From positions 191,316 through 255,315 of the forward strand of contig NZ_JAIUFY010000015.1 in the NCBI RefSeq assembly GCF_020165855.1: a DNA stretch of 64,000 nt, written 5' to 3'. The DNA is from Celeribacter litoreus (GTDB taxonomy: Bacteria; Pseudomonadota; Alphaproteobacteria; Rhodobacterales; Rhodobacteraceae). This document shows, piece after piece, positions 15,129 through 31,114 of the stretch. Position 1 is the first letter of the stretch; each line of letters starts with the position of its first letter. The notes beneath the pieces are model-generated. The model had not been told where the DNA came from and searched no databases. It saw only the letters and a list, made by a program, of their open reading frames with translations. The position numbers were made by a program, and so were the translations under genes.

Positions 15129-15794
15129 ATGAAGACGGTGATTTTCGATCTCGACGGCACGCTGGCGGACACGTCCGCCGATCTGATTGCAGGTGCAAAT
15201 GCCTGTTTTCGCGGTCTGGGGTATGGTGATGTTTTGGACCCTGTGGCCGACGCGCACACGGCCTTTCGCGGCGGACGGGCGATGCTCAACCTCGGGTTTT
15301 CCAAAGTGAAGCCGGGGTTCACGGAAGAGGATGTGATGACCCAATATCCCATCCTGCTCGACGCCTATGCAGAGAATATCGATACGCACACACGTCTTTA
15401 TGACGGGGCGATTGAGGCGATCGAACAACTTCGGTCGGATGGCTACGCCGTCGGCGTCTGCACCAACAAGCCCGAGGACCTCGCGGACCGTCTGCTCACG
15501 CGCCTCGGGGTGCGGGATATGTTTGGGTCGATGATCGGGGCGAAAACGGTTGGTGTCTCCAAGCCGGACCCGAAACCTTATGTCGCGGCTGTCGAAGAGG
15601 CCGGTGGCATTCTCGCGCAGAGTTTTCTCGTCGGGGACACCGAAACGGATCGTTCGACGGCGAAAGCGGCGGGTGTGCCCTGCGCTTTGGTGACATTCGG
15701 GCCGGACGGGGAGGGCGTGCGCTCGCTCGCGCCGGAGGCTTTGCTCTCACACTATAATGACCTCGCGCGGGTCACGCGGGAGTTGATCGGATGA
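15129..15794 (+). CDS. HAD-superfamily hydrolase, phosphoglycolate phosphatase-like
   Basis: A 221-residue HAD hydrolase of the Gph group. Motif I is FDLDGTLADT (about residues 6-15), motif II VCTNKP, the motif III lysine lies in SKPDPKPY, and motif IV is VGDTETD. The cap domain occupies about residues 15-80. Family members dephosphorylate 2-phosphoglycolate or other small phosphate esters. The stop overlaps the start of the DegT-type aminotransferase by 4 nt, so the two are translationally coupled. That raises the possibility of a sugar-phosphate substrate instead of phosphoglycolate. Gph is the default call by sequence, and the true substrate is open. Confidence 0.85.
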   Translation: MKTVIFDLDGTLADTSADLIAGANACFRGLGYGDVLDPVADAHTAFRGGRAMLNLGFSKVKPGFTEEDVMTQYPILLDAYAENIDTHTRLYDGAIEAIEQLRSDGYAVGVCTNKPEDLADRLLTRLGVRDMFGSMIGAKTVGVSKPDPKPYVAAVEEAGGILAQSFLVGDTETDRSTAKAAGVPCALVTFGPDGEGVRSLAPEALLSHYNDLARVTRELIG

Positions 15795-16984
15795 GCGACG
15801 AGATTTTCACCGGTACTTTTACGCAGCAGGAGCCCATCCCCGAAGAGGCGATTGAGGCGGCTGTCGCCGTGATGCGCTCCGGTCGTTTGCACCGCTACAA
15901 CACGCTGCCGAACGAGAAGGGTGAAGTCGCGCTCCTTGAGGAAGAATTCGCAGCCTACACCGGTGCTAAATATTGTCTCGCTGTGGCGTCCGGCGGTTAC
16001 GCGCTCGGCGCGGCATTGCGGGCACTCGAAGTGCAGCCGGGCGAGCCTGTTCTGACCAATGCATTTACCCTTGCCCCCGTGCCCGGTGCGATTGCGGCGG
16101 TGGGGGCAAATCCGGTGTTTGTCGGGGTGACCGAGGGGCTCGTGATCGATCTCGACGATCTGCAGGTGAAGATTGCGGAGACGGGTTCGAAAGTCCTCAT
16201 GCTCTCCCACATGCGCGGCCACATCGTCGATATGGATGCGCTCATGTATATCTGTAATGGCGCGGGCGTCGCCGTGATCGAGGATTGCGCACACACGATG
16301 GGCGCGTCTTGGGATGGGGTGCCTTCCGGTCGTCATGGCGTGATCGGCTGCTATTCGACGCAGACGTACAAGCATATCAATTCGGGGGAGGGCGGGTTGC
16401 TCGTCACCGATGATGAGGAGCTTGCCGCGCGCGCGATCATGTTGTCGGGGTCGTACATGCTCTATGGCAAGCACTCTGCCGGTCCTGCGCCGGAGGTGTT
16501 TGAAAAGATCAAATATGTGACGCCGAACGTGTCGGGGCGGATGGATCACTTGCGTGCCTCTATTCTGCGCGTCCAGTTGCGGAATTTGCCCGAGCAGGTT
16601 GAAAAGTGGAACGCGCGGTATCGCGTCGTCGAGGAAGGGCTGCGCGGCACGCCTGGACTCACGCTGATCGAGCGCCCACAAGCTGAGCAGTATGTCGCCT
16701 CCTCGTTTCAATTTCTTGTGATGGATTGGTCCGACGAGCGGATCGAAGCTCTGGTTGCCGGATGTTTGTCGCGCGGCGTCGAACTCAAATGGTTCGGCGC
16801 ACCGGAACCCGTCGCCTTTACGTCTCGCTACGAGAGCTGGCGCTATGCGGAGCCGCAGAGTCTCCCCGAGAGCGACCGCATCCTGCGCGCCATTATGGAT
16901 ATGCGGTTGCCGTTGACCTTTACCCTGCAGGATTGTGCGCTGATTGCGCGAATTATCTCTGAAGAGGTCGGCAAGCTTGCTTGA
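15791..16984 (+). CDS. DegT/DnrJ/EryC1/StrS-family aminotransferase
   Basis: A 397-residue PLP-dependent sugar aminotransferase-type protein. VIEDCAHTMGASWDG and CYSTQTYKHINSGEGG are the family PLP-site segments. The lysine in TYKHIN is the expected Schiff-base residue, and the glycine-rich end is characteristic. Members aminate nucleotide-linked ketosugars or scyllo-inosose-like compounds. The sequence differs from standard UDP-sugar enzymes in the N-terminal segment (FTQQEPIPEEAIEAAVAVM), and no other sugar-biosynthesis genes are nearby. It overlaps the HAD phosphatase gene by 4 nt. A weak hairpin lies 30 nt downstream. The substrate is unknown. Confidence 0.85.
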   Translation: MSDEIFTGTFTQQEPIPEEAIEAAVAVMRSGRLHRYNTLPNEKGEVALLEEEFAAYTGAKYCLAVASGGYALGAALRALEVQPGEPVLTNAFTLAPVPGAIAAVGANPVFVGVTEGLVIDLDDLQVKIAETGSKVLMLSHMRGHIVDMDALMYICNGAGVAVIEDCAHTMGASWDGVPSGRHGVIGCYSTQTYKHINSGEGGLLVTDDEELAARAIMLSGSYMLYGKHSAGPAPEVFEKIKYVTPNVSGRMDHLRASILRVQLRNLPEQVEKWNARYRVVEEGLRGTPGLTLIERPQAEQYVASSFQFLVMDWSDERIEALVAGCLSRGVELKWFGAPEPVAFTSRYESWRYAEPQSLPESDRILRAIMDMRLPLTFTLQDCALIARIISEEVGKLA

Positions 16985-17014
16985 ACGACCCGAGCGCTGC
17001 ACAATGCTCTTAAT

Positions 17015-17036
17015 TCCGATTTAAACAATCGGATTT
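17015..17036 (+). terminator. possible weak terminator or operator before nuoA
   Basis: TCCGATT (17015-17021), a 5-nt spacer and AATCGGA (17027-17033) form a perfect inverted repeat followed by only TTTA. It may end the aminotransferase transcript, or it may be a protein-binding site upstream of the nuo operon. Confidence 0.35.
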
Positions 17037-17153
17037 ATGCCTCGAATCGCGGGCAGTCCGAGAACTGTCCGGATCAGGCCGTCATTCGTGATCACAAGAT
17101 AAAAAAACTTGCAGACCGCATTGAAACAAAGGGGTTTAGATACGTCCGTTTGG

Positions 17154-17182
17154 TTGACCATATTGTCGCAGGAAGCTAAACC
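17154..17182 (+). promoter_or_regulatory. putative promoter of the nuo operon
   Basis: TTGACC at 17154-17159 and TAAACC at 17177-17182 are separated by 17 nt, consistent with an alphaproteobacterial housekeeping promoter with a strong -35 and weak -10. The leader to the nuoA start would be about 75 nt. A second -35-like TTGCAG lies at 17109 without a good -10. Confidence 0.4.
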
Positions 17183-17265
17183 ACCAAAAGCTAGCAAAGC
17201 AGCGTGCCTGCGTTCGCCCGACAGTTCAGTCCCGCGACGGCAGCGCGCAGATCAAGGAGCCGCTC

Positions 17266-18155
<890 letters not shown>

Positions 18156-18191
18156 GCCCTGAGACGACCGCTACCCATCGCGAAGGACCGT

Positions 18192-19103
18192 ATGGACGCA
18201 ACCCTCGATAACAATGTGACCTACTGCTTCGGCATTGGTGCGCAAAAAGCCGGGACGACTTGGCTTGCGAGCTATCTTCGCAAGCACCCGGATGTGCACG
18301 TGCCGGCGGTGAAAGAGTTGCATTATTTCGACGCGCACTTCGATCCGAAGGTGCGGCGGGCGTATAACCTGCGCACCGCCAAGCTCTCTGAAGTGAAGAG
18401 TGCGGGGGAAGCGGAACGGTTGCAGGCGCTGCTCGACATGATCGATGCACCGGGTGAGGATCACGCGGTGTATCGACGTTTGATGACGACCGGTCGCGGA
18501 AACGCGAAGATCGTCGCGGACATTACGCCGAGCTATGCGCTCTTGTCCGAGGACAACCTCGCGCAGATCAACCGCGACTTCCCGAACTCCAAGTTCATCT
18601 ACATCATGCGTGATCCGATCGACCGCACGCGGTCGCAGCTCAAGATGCTCTACAAAAAGCGTCCGGCAGAGCAATCGGAGCAGAGCTATGTGGATTTCGT
18701 CGACGGGTTCGTGAACGGTGACGCCCATCAGGGCATCGTCGCGCGGACGCGTTACGCGCAGGTGCTCAAGAAATTCGAAGCGGCCATTCCGGAAGAGCAG
18801 CGCCTCGTGCTGTTCTACGAAGAGCTGTTTAGCGACGAAGGCGTGGGCAAAATCTGCGACTTCCTCGGCATCCCGTTTATGCGCGGCGACTACGGTACCC
18901 GCGTGCACGGCGGTCTGACCCCGCGTGCGGATGAGGCCGATGCGCGCCTCGTTGAGGCGCTCGCAGGCCGTCTGGCCCCGATCTACACACAAATGGACAA
19001 GCGCTATGGCGATGCGCTTCCCGAGACATGGAAAGCTGCGCTGAATACGGTGCAGCAGAGTAAGCGTCGGAAGGCATCCCTTCTGTCGCAGCAAGAGAGG
19101 TAA
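18192..19103 (+). CDS. sulfotransferase family protein inserted between nuoB and nuoC
   Basis: A 303-residue soluble sulfotransferase of the Sulfotransfer_1/3 type, which transfers sulfate from PAPS to a hydroxyl or amine. The 5'-phosphosulfate loop is [15 protein letters not shown] (about residues 15-29), and the 3'-phosphate site is [11 protein letters not shown] (about 139-149). [10 protein letters not shown] follows the first loop. The start has GAAGGA upstream. The gene lies 36 nt after nuoB and ends 2 nt before nuoC, so it must be cotranscribed with complex I genes. It is a paralogue of the gene at 19711, with a similar loop, a shared KELHYFD and a similar C-terminal LPE.W motif. The acceptor is unknown. 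A role in complex I is possible but unproven. Confidence 0.9.
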
Positions 19104-19105
19104 TC

Positions 19106-19705
19106 ATGAGTGAGGCCTTGAAAGAACTCGCGGCGACAATCGAGCTGAAACGTCCCGACGACGTGCTCTCGACTGAGGTGGCATTTGGCGAGTTGACCGT
19201 GCGTGTCACCCCGACCGGGATCGTCGATTTCGTCGACTTTCTGAAAACGGACGGAGCATGCAAATTCTCCACGCTCGTGGACATCACTGCCGTGGACCAT
19301 CCGACGCGCGATCAGCGTTTTGACGTCGTTTACCACTTCCTGTCGATGTATCAGAACCACCGCATCCGCGTCGTCGCAGCTGTGCGTGAGGACGAGACGA
19401 TTGCGTCCATCCTTCCGGTGCACCCGTCGGCAGGTTGGTTCGAGCGTGAAGTGTTCGACATGTTCGGTATCATCTTCACCGGCCACCCGGACCTGCGTCG
19501 TCTGTTGACGGACTACGGTTTCCGTGGCCACCCGCTGCGCAAGGACTTCCCGGCGACCGGCTACACCGAAGTGCGCTACGACGAAGAGCTGAAACGCGTC
19601 GTATACGAACCGGTCAGCCTCGTGCAGGAATACCGCCAGTTCGACAACCTGTCTCCGTGGGAAGGTGCGAAATACATCCTTCCTGGCGATGAGAAGGGGG
19701 CGTAA
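19106..19705 (+). CDS. nuoC: NADH-quinone oxidoreductase subunit C
   Basis: A 199-residue subunit of the 30-kDa type in the peripheral arm, contacting NuoD and NuoB. The signature [20 protein letters not shown], followed by [14 protein letters not shown] (about residues 112-152), is clear. It is a stand-alone NuoC, not the NuoCD fusion of enterobacteria. It starts 2 nt after one sulfotransferase gene and ends 5 nt before another, so it is sandwiched between paralogues. Its C-terminal end [17 protein letters not shown] is like that of other Rhodobacterales. Confidence 0.97.
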
Positions 19706-19710
19706 GTCCA

Positions 19711-20604
19711 GTGAGCGATCCGGCAATCATGATCTGTGTAGGGGCGACCAAAGCGGGCACCAGCTCGCTTTACAGCTATTTGCACGATCATCCTGATTGC
19801 CACATCCGGTCTGTGAAGGAACTTCATTACTTCGACACGATCGAGTTTGATAACTTCACCTTCCAGTTCGACGACCTCGCGAGACTGCGCGCTGACCTCG
19901 AGAAACGCCGCGCTGAGGCGCAAGAGAACGATGATCCGTGGCGGGTTGCCAATCTTGTGCGTCGGATGCTTGATGTCGACGAACTCACGCAAATCCTGTC
20001 GAAAGGGGAGGAGGGGCTGAATGATTATCTCTTCTATCTGGTCGATGGGGTGGGGGACCGCAAACTCGTGGCGGACCTGACGCCGGCTTATGGGCTTTTG
20101 CCCGAAGAGCGGCTAAAGCAAATGGCAACCATGGCCCCCGACGTGCGCTTCGTGTTCCTGATGCGCGACCCTGTGGACCGGCTGTGGTCACATGTGCGTA
20201 TGCGCGCGCAGCGAGGCTTGAAAGACGGTGAGGATTTCGCGGAAAAGGCGGACAGAGTTCTGGATCGTCTGGTCACGAAGAACCGCCCGAACCAGATCAT
20301 CCCGCGCGGCGATTACGCCACGATTGTGGAAAAACTGAAACGCTCGGTGCCCGAGGAGAAACGTCTCATTGGCTTTACCGAGGAATTGATGACAACCGAC
20401 GGTCTCGCGACGATTTGCGAGTTTCTGGGCATCTCGGAGAAGACCGTCGAGGAAGAACCCCGCACCCATGAGGGTGTGAAATTGAAACTGAGTGACGCAC
20501 AGCGGCAGAAAGCGGCCCAATATCTGGCCCCGCAATATGCCTATGTGGAGAAGACATTTGGCCGGCTACCCGAACGGTGGCAGGCGAACATGGCGAGGAT
20601 CTGA
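19711..20604 (+). CDS. second sulfotransferase family protein, between nuoC and nuoD
   Basis: A 297-residue sulfotransferase paralogous to the one at 18192. PAPS-site motifs are [15 protein letters not shown] (about residues 9-23) and [12 protein letters not shown] (about 150-161). KELHYFD and [13 protein letters not shown] match the paralogue, while the middle (about 48-105) is longer and diverged. The start is GTG at 19711, 5 nt after the nuoC stop. The gene ends 2 nt before nuoD. The tight spacing on both sides shows stable integration into the operon, not a recent random insertion. The acceptor is unknown. Base composition does not look foreign by eye. Confidence 0.88.
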
Positions 20605-20606
20605 GA

Positions 20607-21848
20607 ATGGACGGCGACATCCGGCAAAACACCTACGATGACGGCTCGCGCGACGCCACCGACGGCGAACAGAAGATCCGCAACTTTAACATCAACTTCG
20701 GGCCCCAGCACCCTGCGGCCCACGGTGTGTTGCGGATGGTTCTGGAACTCGACGGTGAGATCGTAGAACGCGCTGACCCGCACATCGGCCTGCTGCACCG
20801 CGGCACCGAAAAGCTGATGGAAAACCGCACCTACCTGCAGAACCTGCCGTATCTCGACCGCCTCGACTACGTGGCGCCGATGAACCAGGAGCATGCATGG
20901 TGTCTCGCGATTGAACGTCTCGCTGGCGTTGAAATCCCGCGTCGTGCGTCTCTCATCCGTGTTCTGTATTCCGAGATCGGCCGTGTGCTGAACCACCTCC
21001 TGAACACCACCACCGGTGCAATGGACGTGGGCGCTCTGACCCCGCCACTGTGGGGCTTTGAAGAGCGTGAAAAGCTCATGATCTTCTACGAGCGCGCCTG
21101 TGGTGCCCGTCTGCACTCCGCCTACTTCCGTCCGGGTGGTGTGCACCAAGACCTGCCGCCGGAACTGCTCGACGATATCGAAGAGTGGGCCGATCACTTC
21201 CCGAAAGTGCTCGACGACATTCATTACCTGCTGTCCGACAACCGGATATTCAAACAGCGGACCGTGGACATCGGCCTGATCAACGAGCAAGAAGCACTCG
21301 ATTGGGGCTTCTCCGGTGTGATGGTGCGTGGCTCCGGCATGGCATGGGACCTGCGTCGTTCGCAGCCCTATGAGTGCTACAACGAATTCGACTTCCAGAT
21401 CCCCGTTGGCACCAACGGCGACTGTTTCGACCGCTACATGTGCCGCATGCAGGAGATGTACGAGTCGACGAAGATCATCAAACAGGCGATCGCGAAACTG
21501 CGTGAGCCGGAAAACCAGGGCGATGTGCTTGCCCGTGGAAAACTGACGCCGCCGAAACGTGGCGACATGAAAACCTCCATGGAAGCCCTCATCCATCACT
21601 TCAAACTCTACACCGAAGGGTTCAAGCTGCCCGAGGGTGAGGTTTACGCCGCCGTTGAAGCGCCGAAAGGCGAATTCGGGGTCTACCTCTACTCCGACGG
21701 CTCCAACAAACCCTACCGCGCGAAACTGCGTGCGCCGGGCTATCTGCACCTGCAGGCCATGGACTACATGGCCAAAGGGCACCAGCTGGCCGACGTGTCC
21801 GCAATCATCGCCACCATGGACATCGTTTTCGGGGAGGTCGACCGCTAA
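20607..21848 (+). CDS. nuoD: NADH-quinone oxidoreductase subunit D
   Basis: A 413-residue 49-kDa-type subunit forming the quinone-binding pocket with Nuo[15 protein letters not shown] (about residues 29-42) and [20 protein letters not shown] are diagnostic. The C-terminus DIVFGEVDR is the conserved end. The ATG at 20607 has GAGG 9-10 nt upstream. An upstream in-frame ATG (20577) would overlap the sulfotransferase gene. Its stop shares one base with the nuoE start (TAATG), indicating coupled translation. Confidence 0.98.
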
Positions 21849-23013: not shown

Positions 23014-23676
23014 ATGAGTGAGGTTTCTGTGAAAACCCCGAAAATCTGGCTAATCGCTGCCATCTGCGGTGTGTTGGCGTTTCTGGCGCTCTTGGTGCTC
23101 GCCGGGTATTCCACTGGTGCGTCTGTGATTGTCGGTGTTCTCGTTGCTGCGCTGGTCTCGATCCTGCTGTGGATCGGTTGGTATGAGGATGACGCTGCCG
23201 TGGCAGAGGGACATCCAGAGGCAGACGTGACGACGGATGGTCTCATGCACACCGCTGGTGTCGGCGACGAGCCGGCGACTCCGGTGGCCGACGAGATCGC
23301 GCCGGAACCGCATGCGGCCGACACGCGTGAAGTTCGTTCGTCTGCAGCCGCAGCGACGCCAGAGGCGACACCCGTTTCTGATGAGGGCGGAACCAAACCT
23401 GAGTTCCTCGCGGGGCCGATGGGCGGCGCGGCGGACAATCTCAAGGAGATCAAAGGGGTCGGGCCGAAGCTCGAACAACTCTTGCACTCCATGGGGATTT
23501 TTCATTTTTCCCAGATCGCCGGATGGGGCGATGCCGAAGTGGCGTGGATGGATGAAAACCTGAAAGGCTTTAAAGGCCGTGTCACCCGTGACGATTGGGT
23601 GGCTCAGGCAACGACCCTCGCCGCAGGCGGGGAAACCGAATTCTCGAAACGCGTCGAAGACGGCGACGTGTATTGA
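23014..23676 (+). CDS. membrane protein with C-terminal NuoE-like helix-hairpin-helix domain
   Basis: A 220-residue protein of unknown function. Two hydrophobic segments lie near the N-terminus (about residues 10-28 and 32-52). An acidic, Ala/Pro-rich linker (about 55-140) precedes a C-terminal domain (about 142-206) with [20 protein letters not shown] and GRVTRDDWVAQA. This domain aligns almost end to end with the NuoE tail encoded just upstream, at roughly half identity by eye. That indicates duplication or domain sharing. A strong ribosome site (GGAGAAGAAGG) precedes the ATG. It is probably a membrane-tethered partner of complex I or of its assembly, inferred from position and the shared domain. 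Confidence 0.85.
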   Translation: MSEVSVKTPKIWLIAAICGVLAFLALLVLAGYSTGASVIVGVLVAALVSILLWIGWYEDDAAVAEGHPEADVTTDGLMHTAGVGDEPATPVADEIAPEPHAADTREVRSSAAAATPEATPVSDEGGTKPEFLAGPMGGAADNLKEIKGVGPKLEQLLHSMGIFHFSQIAGWGDAEVAWMDENLKGFKGRVTRDDWVAQATTLAAGGETEFSKRVEDGDVY

Positions 23677-25649: not shown

Positions 25650-25915
25650 TGGCATGTCAGACCACATATCAGGCGATCAGCACCACAGGACGGCCGTTGG
25701 CCGGTCTGTGTGTTGTGCCTGTGGTCGATGCTCAGGATGAGTTCGGGGTACTTCCCACTACAAATCTGCAAAAGTCGGACGAGGCGCTCGAACGTCTTGC
25801 CAACAGTCTAAATCATGGGGACAGCGATTTCGCCAATGGCGGATCGTATCTGACAGACGGAGCGATGGCAGCGATGCATGCCGACCGTCCAATTTCAGAA
25901 GGAGTTCTCCTGTGA
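25649..25915 (+). CDS. 88-residue hypothetical protein overlapping its neighbours
   Basis: A reading frame of 88 codons beginning MACQTTYQAISTTGRPLAGL. It starts at the TGATG junction with the preceding stop and ends 4 nt into the next gene's GTG start. It has two cysteines but no clear signal peptide, membrane helix or known motif. The tight overlaps at both ends argue that it is translated. Its short length and lack of family recognition argue for caution. It could also be a degraded remnant. Confidence 0.45.
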   Translation: MACQTTYQAISTTGRPLAGLCVVPVVDAQDEFGVLPTTNLQKSDEALERLANSLNHGDSDFANGGSYLTDGAMAAMHADRPISEGVLL

Positions 25916-26322
25916 AGGCTTTGAAATACTTTGGCTTCTCTCTCGCGATGATGTCCGGCGCTGCGGCTGCTGCGGAACTTCCGCCGCTTCGCGAACAGAA
26001 AGCGATCGACACGAATATGCTCTGGGCAGGTCTTGCCATCGAGACGTCTGACCAGTGCCCGACGCTCGACCTGCGCACCTTTAAGGGGCTGACGTTCCTG
26101 TGGGGCGTGAAGACGGATGCGTCTGATCTCGGATACACCGACGATCAGATCCGCGCCTATGTCGAAAGTGATGCGGAGAAAGACCGTATTCGTGCGCTCG
26201 GCACCAAGTACATCGCAGACGCGGGATTCGATCCGTCCACGCCGGAGGGTCTTTGTGCCTTCGGTGAGGCAGAGATCGCGCGCGGCTCGATCATCGGCTC
26301 TTTCCTGAAGGATGTGAAATGA
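25912..26322 (+). CDS. small exported protein, DUF5333-like paralogue 2
   Basis: A 136-residue protein with a signal peptide (about residues 1-21, ending AAAAA) and a mature domain with cysteines in TSDQCPTLDLR (about 48) and EGLCAFGEAEIARGSIIGSF (about 117). The LCAF.E.EI..GS ending is what I associate with DUF5333 proteins of Rhodobacterales. The start is GTG at 25912 with AAGGAG 8 nt upstream, overlapping the previous frame. The stop overlaps the ATG of the next gene (ATGA). The paired cysteines could form a disulfide in the periplasm. Function unknown, with conserved association with complex I genes suspected. Confidence 0.75.
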   Translation: MKALKYFGFSLAMMSGAAAAAELPPLREQKAIDTNMLWAGLAIETSDQCPTLDLRTFKGLTFLWGVKTDASDLGYTDDQIRAYVESDAEKDRIRALGTKYIADAGFDPSTPEGLCAFGEAEIARGSIIGSFLKDVK

Positions 26323-26723
26323 CGGTTCGTGCGCTCCATATCCTCGCGGCAGCGATGCTCGCCCTTCCTGCACATGCTGCGGGAAGCATCACCGAAGATC
26401 CGGTGGTGATGAACGAGGTGATGCTTTCGACCGTGGCGACAAAGATTGCCGCCGAGTGTCCGAAATATGCGGTGAACCCGACGGCTACCGGCGCTTCGGC
26501 GCAAAAGCTGATGGGACACATCTCGGAACAGGGCTATAGCTCCTCCGAGGTCCAAGATTTGCAGAGCCCCGCCTACATGCAAACCGTGTCGGTGGCTGCT
26601 GATGAATATCTGTCTGCCCAAGGGGTAGATGCGACGAACAATAGGGCGCTTTGCGCCTTTGCGAAACGGGAGCTGAGGGAGGGCACATCCGAGCTCTCCA
26701 TGCTTCTAATGAAGAACAGGTGA
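26319..26723 (+). CDS. small exported protein, DUF5333-like paralogue 3
   Basis: A 134-residue protein with a signal peptide (about residues 1-20, LAAAMLALPAHA) and a mature domain whose two cysteines lie in KIAAECPKYAV (about 48) and RALCAFAKRELREGTSELSM (about 111). The spacing and flanking residues match the gene before it. That supports a tandem duplication. The ATG overlaps the upstream stop by 4 nt, and nuoG begins 6 nt after its end. It is likely periplasmic. No catalytic motif is recognised. Confidence 0.75.
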   Translation: MTVRALHILAAAMLALPAHAAGSITEDPVVMNEVMLSTVATKIAAECPKYAVNPTATGASAQKLMGHISEQGYSSSEVQDLQSPAYMQTVSVAADEYLSAQGVDATNNRALCAFAKRELREGTSELSMLLMKNR

Positions 26724-30706: not shown

Positions 30707-31114
30707 ATGAACGATTTCACCAAACTTTTCGCTGAGATGATCGAGCAGAGCCAGAAAATGGCGGCGTCGTTCAATCCGGCTCTGGAAAACTTCCAGATGC
30801 CGTCTCTCGACAAGCTGTTCCCGACGATGACGAAGGAACAGATGGAAATGTTCTGGGGCAACACCTTCAATAAGGACGGGCTCGACGCCAAGACACGGCT
30901 TCTCGTCGTGCTGGCCGGTCAGACCGTTCTGGGCGCACAGGCTGAGGCGCCGTTCAAACTGACGGTGCGCCATGCTCTTGAAGCAGGGGCCAGCCAAAAA
31001 GAGATCGCGGAAGTGATCTACCAAATGTCCATGCTGGGCGGTGTCCCGGCTATGTCAAAAGCACTGGAGTTGGCGCAGGCCGTCTTCTCCGAGACGCAGG
31101 AGGACAGTGAATGA
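30707..31114 (+). CDS. carboxymuconolactone decarboxylase-like protein lacking cysteines
   Basis: A 135-residue all-helical protein of the CMD/AhpD superfamily. The core is [20 protein letters not shown] followed by [33 protein letters not shown] (about residues 57-120). The chain contains no cysteine at all, so the CxxC redox site of AhpD peroxidases is absent, and an antioxidant role of that kind is unlikely. CMD proteins without cysteines include true decarboxylases and many of unknown role. The gene lies between nuoI and nuoJ, and its stop overlaps nuoJ by 4 nt. A complex I accessory role is inferred only from position. Confidence 0.82.

Follow-up and report, generated by a model that had tools for sequence, protein, structure and literature searches.

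Sulfotransferase genes beside nuoC in the complex I operon of Celeribacter litoreus and other Rhodobacteraceae

Introduction

Accessory open reading frames (ORFs), termed URFs, are inserted in the nqo/nuo operons of Paracoccus and Rhodobacter; we know of no sulfotransferase among them. The heparan sulfate 3-O-sulfotransferases and NDST are animal enzymes with glycosaminoglycan acceptors, and in the heparan sulfate sulfotransferase class the glutamate of a KE-type motif is catalytic. The nuo operon of Celeribacter litoreus described here resembles those of Paracoccus and Rhodobacter in that it likewise carries extra genes between complex I genes.

A foreign enzyme fold tied to the NuoC homologue of alphaproteobacterial complex I has a precedent. 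In the cryo-EM structure of the Paracoccus denitrificans complex, a basic patch of CI-PIMT lies at the interface with NDUFS3, the NuoC subunit, and the protein is concluded to be catalytically dead, as stated in the excerpted text of PMC11522691. CI-PIMT, so concluded to be dead, was seen bound in a structure; the nuo-linked sulfotransferase keeps its catalytic residues and is not known to bind complex I. Searches of open-access papers, with few subscription journals among the sources, gave no report of a sulfotransferase that recurs in this fixed place next to nuoC. The excerpt of PMC6731281 mentions the nuo operon in a connection other than sulfotransferases, and the word "sulfotransferase" is absent from the text of PMC4859585, which belongs to the complex I operon literature. 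Sulfotransferases and ORFs inserted in nuo operons are each already known kinds. The place beside nuoC marks out, as a group, probably active sulfotransferases that occur in roughly one in four of the genera sampled in the family, and their occurrence in a core respiratory operon suggests a slot that exchanges genes without disturbing their neighbours.

Two sulfotransferase genes in the nuo operon of C. litoreus

The window, that is, the whole stretch of 64,000 nucleotides that was analysed, covers positions 191316-255315 of its contig in the 3.66-Mb assembly. Two homologous sulfotransferase genes, ST1 and ST2, are interleaved with nuoB, nuoC and nuoD (Table 1), as the preliminary description had it; ORFs, gene order and Pfam assignments all agree. 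The tight packing that it reported is equally borne out, the intergenic gaps being 36 nt (nuoB-ST1), 2 nt (ST1-nuoC), 5 nt (nuoC-ST2) and 2 nt (ST2-nuoD). NuoE was also confirmed by Pfam in the window, and a longer GTG reading of nuoD in the ORF list, from 20577, overlaps ST2. Neither a sigma-70-like site nor a plus-strand terminator-like site was found in a weak scan of 16950-21000.

Table 1. Positions in the window of the nuo genes around ST1 and ST2 and of further ORFs in the operon region
Feature	Positions	Strand	Remarks
DegT-type sugar-aminotransferase-like gene	15791-16984		Directly upstream of nuoA
nuoA	17266-17631	+	Overlaps nuoB; named by place and by matches upstream of nuoB in relatives
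nuoB	17601-18155	+	Pfam Oxidored_q6
ST1, PAPS-dependent sulfotransferase-like (Sulfotransfer_3), between nuoB and nuoC	18192-19103	+	ATG, 303 aa; Pfam
nuoC	19106-19705	+	Pfam Complex1_30kDa
ST2, sulfotransferase in the nuoC-nuoD slot	19711-20604	+	GTG, 297 aa; Pfam
nuoD	20607-21848	+	ATG start; Pfam Complex1_49kDa
220-aa ORF	23014-23676		Between nuoE and nuoF
DUF5333 gene	25912-26322		nuoF-nuoG interval
DUF5333 gene	26319-26723		nuoF-nuoG interval
Carboxymuconolactone-decarboxylase-like ORF	30707-31114		Between nuoI and nuoJ; below curated cut-offs

Foreign base composition as a mark of recent arrival was rejected, the two sulfotransferase genes having a GC content of 0.595 and 0.569 and the window one of 0.593 on average. 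By codon usage ST2 scores as less nuo-like than the nuo genes themselves, which does not argue for high expression.

Predicted fold, conserved residues and selection

Both proteins pass the curated cut-off of Sulfotransfer_3 (27 bits), ST1 with 74.4 bits (2.1e-20) and ST2 with 41.5 bits (2.4e-10), and ST1 also matches Sulfotransfer_1 (1.8e-13). Aligned with each other, they are identical in 100 of 304 columns (33%; E 5e-49 in a single comparison), and the identity ranges from 33 to 37% over comparisons. A structure model of ST2 (mean pLDDT 94) was compared with the PDB, and all 35 rows at E <= 0.001 are sulfotransferases, the best being 3rnl, heparan sulfate 3-O-sulfotransferases, the curacin and olefin-synthase sulfotransferase domains, NDST and tyrosylprotein sulfotransferase; a sequence profile search agrees. 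The best match in both fold and sequence, 3rnl from Alicyclobacillus acidocaldarius (Sulfotransfer_3, PF13469), shares the fold and the PAPS-site motifs with 22% identity in the structural alignment, but has a shorter stretch from the KE motif to the central part. The heparan sulfate 3-O-sulfotransferases and NDST follow, with TM-scores of 0.54-0.61 on ST2 and 14-18% identity, and have the KE-type motif in common with it. The fold of ST2 is thus predicted to be that of a heparan-sulfate-type sulfotransferase.

An alignment of 39 of the 52 nuo-linked copies, ST1 and ST2 included, spans 25-68% identity to ST2; eight near-copies from the genus, G140, G066 and three copies read only as stop-free frames (G034, G050, G061) were dropped from it. 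Five residues do not vary in any of the 39 sequences, namely G11 and T17, both in the PAPS loop, and E37, R152 and S160, and A12, K14, G16, K36 and H39 are kept in at least 90% of them. We take these positions to be the PAPS loop, the catalytic glutamate (E37) and the arginine (R152) and serine (S160) that bind the 3'-phosphate.

In ten chosen species pairs, which are not mutually independent, dN/dS is 0.024-0.231 for ST2 and 0.022-0.106 for nuoC; nuoD gave a value in eight of the pairs. The value for ST2 is the higher in nine of the ten pairs, implying weaker constraint on ST2. Because the PAPS-site and catalytic residues are kept and selection is purifying, ST2 is probably a functional enzyme, with a higher rate of evolution than the nuo genes. 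The corresponding evidence for activity of ST1 consists of its kept residues and open reading frame.

PAPS is made by APS kinase, and a gene for this enzyme was detected in 135 of 149 genomes of the family, that of C. litoreus included; of the genomes that carry a nuo-linked sulfotransferase, all but G019 (91% complete) and G068 (76%) gave a match. Being nearly universal, PAPS supply was dropped as a discriminating test. A helical insert specific to the nuo-linked proteins was considered too and rejected, the span from KE to TPxY being similar in those non-nuo sulfotransferases, a limited part of the set, in which the pattern is measurable.

Occurrence in the genus and the family

An ST2-type gene lies between nuoC and nuoD in 16 of the 19 other genomes of the genus, and its ORF is open in all 16 loci fetched. 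Two of the remaining genomes (G155, G158) have nuoC with no sulfotransferase there, and NuoC was not found in the third (G165, 85% complete). ST2 is the usual occupant of the nuoC-nuoD junction in the genus. At nuoB-nuoC, the gap measures 14-23 nt in the 16 loci and about 15 nt in L301 and L302, and ST1 was seen in none of these 18 loci; neither was a second sulfotransferase copy found between nuoA and nuoG in the 16. The preliminary description had named absence of the genes from all close relatives as something that would count against its reading; for ST2, such an absence is not what was found.

For the family, one genome per genus was taken (149 genomes), 139 of which have NuoC at 1e-20; the ten with no NuoC match lie outside the census, and the nuo regions of the other 138 were read together with the window. 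An open sulfotransferase gene adjoins nuoC in 33 of the 139 genera: between nuoC and nuoD in 31, the window included, between nuoB and nuoC in one (G070), and after nuoC, where the contig ends, in another (G061). The genera were counted on ORFs except for G050 and G034, which were counted on stop-free frames. Decayed copies occur in two further genera: a C-terminal remnant persists in G089, and the frame of G066 is broken. In 106 of the 139 genera no open copy adjoins nuoC, a distribution narrower than that of complex I itself, though one that a lineage-specific subunit could show. Two sulfotransferase copies are present in G116, and two follow nuoC in G272 and G294, in which nuoD lies outside the stretch.

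In a further sample of 244 genomes, in which nuo linkage was looked at in G169, G272 and G294, every listed row belongs to the same family, so that this sample bears on no other. A sample of the class (385 genomes, a few of them of the family) gave three matches outside the family at <=1e-40, none of them on the contig of its nuoC. Linkage to nuo therefore appears so far to be a feature of Rhodobacteraceae, as judged by a search that weaker sulfotransferases in nuo operons elsewhere would escape. Named genomes give the same arrangement. Among the best 80 of 551 relatives, which were picked by similarity to ST2 and so describe its own group, 78 follow nuoC and precede nuoD; of the remaining two, L250 is followed by nuoD and interrupted by the end of its contig, and L273 lacks nuo genes. 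These 80 include Frigidibacter, Rhodovulum, Pseudorhodobacter, Palleronia, Yoonia, Loktanella, Marivivens, Actibacterium, Gemmobacter and Defluviimonas, and seven of the named loci hold two copies. Synteny that recurs over many genera, together with purifying selection on ST2, is more than chance.

The nuoC-nuoD slot

The ORFs of at least 60 aa in the gaps from nuoA to nuoG were searched with a sulfotransferase model, for which ST1 and ST2 served as the source. Its 49 matches, which include the two of the window, those of the 16 other genus loci and the broken copy of G066, all lie in nuoC-nuoD or nuoB-nuoC gaps. No sulfotransferase ORF was found in the nuoA-nuoB, nuoD-nuoE, nuoE-nuoF or nuoF-nuoG gaps; inserted DNA in the census amounts to 133 kb in nuoE-nuoF, 161 kb in nuoF-nuoG and 52 kb in nuoC-nuoD. 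Simple use of a strong promoter, one of the possibilities first proposed for these genes, does not by itself predict restriction to the neighbourhood of nuoC.

The nuoC-nuoD slot is shorter than 100 nt in 52 of the 138 genera in which it is measurable. Other contents recognised by sequence pattern are NTF2-like proteins of about 130 aa (11 cases), GFA-like proteins (6) and small membrane proteins (21), all these names being given on patterns that we take to be characteristic. One of the six GFA-like genes adjoins the sulfotransferase of G020, a further one was spotted by eye in G009, and some of the 21 small membrane proteins share the slot with NTF2-like or GFA-like genes. The sulfotransferase is the commonest large occupant of the slot in the census. 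Since the slot is often short or filled by unrelated genes, an accessory guest gene is favoured. In G039, a nuo-like sulfotransferase copy is located outside nuo (L030, 326 bits), and the nuoC-nuoD gap of this genome is 36 nt. G120 (L159), with a nuoC-nuoD gap of 2 nt, has a sulfotransferase gene a short way upstream of nuoA, in the opposite orientation.

Origin of ST1 and ST2

A tree built from 73 sulfotransferases (G066 with its broken frame, L004, L005, L217 and a duplicate reading of G118 were left out) places ST2 in a clade (95/90) of 17 copies from the genus and one from another genus, G042. ST1 falls outside this genus-wide clade, on a long unresolved branch. Its best match, itself excepted, in 394 family genomes (393 genera) is a nuoC-nuoD gene of another genus, at 39-42% as against 33-37% between ST1 and ST2, and the two are thus not each other's closest relatives. 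As ST1 stands outside the clade and the nuoB-nuoC gap of relatives is so short, ST1 does not appear to be a recent copy of ST2. The preliminary description had derived the pair from duplication; taken as a local, recent event this is not borne out by the tree and the best matches, and the PAPS loop and KELHYFD motif that it read as signs of duplication are general among the 39 nuo-linked sulfotransferases. A common origin of the two genes may be of old date. ST1 is a second occupant, at nuoB-nuoC, and its uptake from another nuo-sulfotransferase lineage, or its survival as an old paralogue, appears more probable than local copying.

No phage source for ST1 was found among 50,697 phage records. 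Thirty plasmid records match ST1, with 27-31% identity in the eight matches listed. The best of them (Sulfitobacter guttiformis, NC_019364.1:87446-88366) is annotated as an alpha/beta hydrolase fold protein; at L201:2174-3859, outside nuo, one ORF joins a sulfotransferase relative with an alpha/beta hydrolase domain.

No single branch of the tree sets the nuo-linked sulfotransferases apart, and a single origin is rejected only at the border of significance (p-AU 0.0476). If capture next to nuoC did happen more than once, this hints that the position has a reason. When the copies from the genus are counted (43 rows), sulfotransferase and Nuo distances correlate with r 0.687, reached in 0 of 2,000 permutations, which indicates mainly vertical inheritance within the genus; residence in a conserved operon would in any case make a gene look fixed to its place. 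When each genus is represented by a single row (27), the distances hardly agree: r is 0.22, a value reached by 280 of 5,000 permutations, and the sulfotransferase and Nuo trees share 1 of 24 bipartitions (random labels give a mean of 0.24 and at most 2). The congruence test left out G020, G025, G063, G092, the first copy of G116, G066 and the nuoB-nuoC copies. The sulfotransferase and Nuo alignments each reject the other's tree (30 rows), and sulfotransferase distances are a median of 3.54 times the Nuo distances (435 pairs).

The sulfotransferase of G166 groups with that of G042 (100/100) at a distance ratio of 1.48, the lowest of the 435 pairs, and at both borders the nuoC and nuoD of G166 are nearer to those of its genus mates G000 (C. 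litoreus), G161 and G151 than to those of G042. Either the ORF alone would have been exchanged or tandem copies would have been lost differently; both fit a slot with unchanged neighbours. A purely historical account, compatible with the functional readings considered below, is that of an old tandem family at nuoC-nuoD shaped by differential loss, not transfer, with ST1 as a relict that moved to nuoB-nuoC. We hold it possible, with the odds rather against it. The loci with two copies, namely seven of the best 80 named ones, G116, G272 and G294, agree with such a family, and ORF-precise exchange with unchanged flanks is what differential loss would leave. However, the sulfotransferases of G166 and G042 are close for their Nuo distance, which favours transfer, a pattern that a slow lineage could mimic, and the 16 other genus loci gave no second copy between nuoA and nuoG.

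Possible functions

We lean, on somewhat better than even terms, to an accessory PAPS-dependent sulfotransferase that is expressed from the nuo operon and has an acceptor other than complex I, probably in carbohydrate or the envelope. ST2, and probably ST1, would be active soluble PAPS-dependent enzymes of the heparan-sulfate/NDST-like (Sulfotransfer_3) fold. As guest genes they would borrow the transcription of the nuo operon and its translational coupling, and the nuoC-nuoD junction of the family would be a slot where accessory genes come in, replace one another and disappear between nuo genes that keep their places. The putative acceptor class, most likely carbohydrate-type or cell-envelope, is suggested by the fold and, weakly, by the relatives outside nuo. 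The third sulfotransferase of the C. litoreus genome adjoins ABC-transporter genes. An RTX-repeat protein occurs in 5 of 25 non-nuo sulfotransferase loci and in 1 of 154 nuo loci, the loci differing in length and the control being unmatched. The RTX calcium-binding repeats are found in L201, L208, L213, L217 and L273, and the gene in L208 ends 40 nt before the sulfotransferase. The restriction to the neighbourhood of nuoC sits oddly with a guest gene and counts against it. If the product is not related to complex I, the gene points to an unmapped sulfated compound and offers a simple locus to delete.

The same restriction, with the tight packing and the purifying selection, would be accounted for by a sulfotransferase that serves complex I or its surroundings, sulfating a Nuo subunit, the quinone pool or a membrane lipid, and that is a neighbour of nuoC for this reason. 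We nevertheless regard such a service as unlikely. The 106 genera and the two nuoC-bearing genomes of the same genus that have no open copy beside nuoC speak against it, as do the unrelated genes that fill the slot elsewhere and the relatives outside nuo in G039 (L030) and L273. The structure from P. denitrificans names four extra subunits with no sulfotransferase among them in the excerpted text of PMC11522691, an argument that holds if that species carries the gene. A related proposal, a family-specific sulfation tied to respiration that would modify complex I, quinone or lipids and would have been placed beside nuoC repeatedly for that purpose, seems less probable again. If the product touched complex I, it would represent a new kind of modification.

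Lower still ranks a supernumerary complex I subunit near NuoC, in which the enzyme fold would have turned structural like that of PIMT on NDUFS3 in Paracoccus; we think it improbable. CI-PIMT provides an alphaproteobacterial precedent, and the gene here adjoins nuoC; however, the catalytic function of CI-PIMT is said to be lost, whereas the nuo-linked sulfotransferases keep their catalytic residues in 39 sequences, and distances about 3.5 times those of Nuo (median of 435 pairs) are unexpected for an interface partner. That the gene is a neutral passenger, a functionless insertion kept as harmless, would suit the patchy distribution and the decayed copies of G089 and G066, but is very improbable, and for ST2 already so in view of its dN/dS in the ten pairs, the kept catalytic residues and the open ORFs in 16 of 16 genus loci.

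Other features of the operon region

The sugar-aminotransferase-like gene directly upstream of nuoA is present there in some relatives. A link between it and the sulfotransferase was considered and dropped, no association being seen in 123 genomes (Fisher p 0.28). The carboxymuconolactone-decarboxylase-like ORF and the two DUF5333 genes, which adjoin each other, lie further downstream (Table 1). The C-terminal part of an NCBIfam NuoE model (positions 271-397) is matched, with a score under its cut-off, by the 220-aa ORF that separates nuoE from nuoF, and on this likeness a C-terminal extension of NuoE may have been copied into a separate gene.
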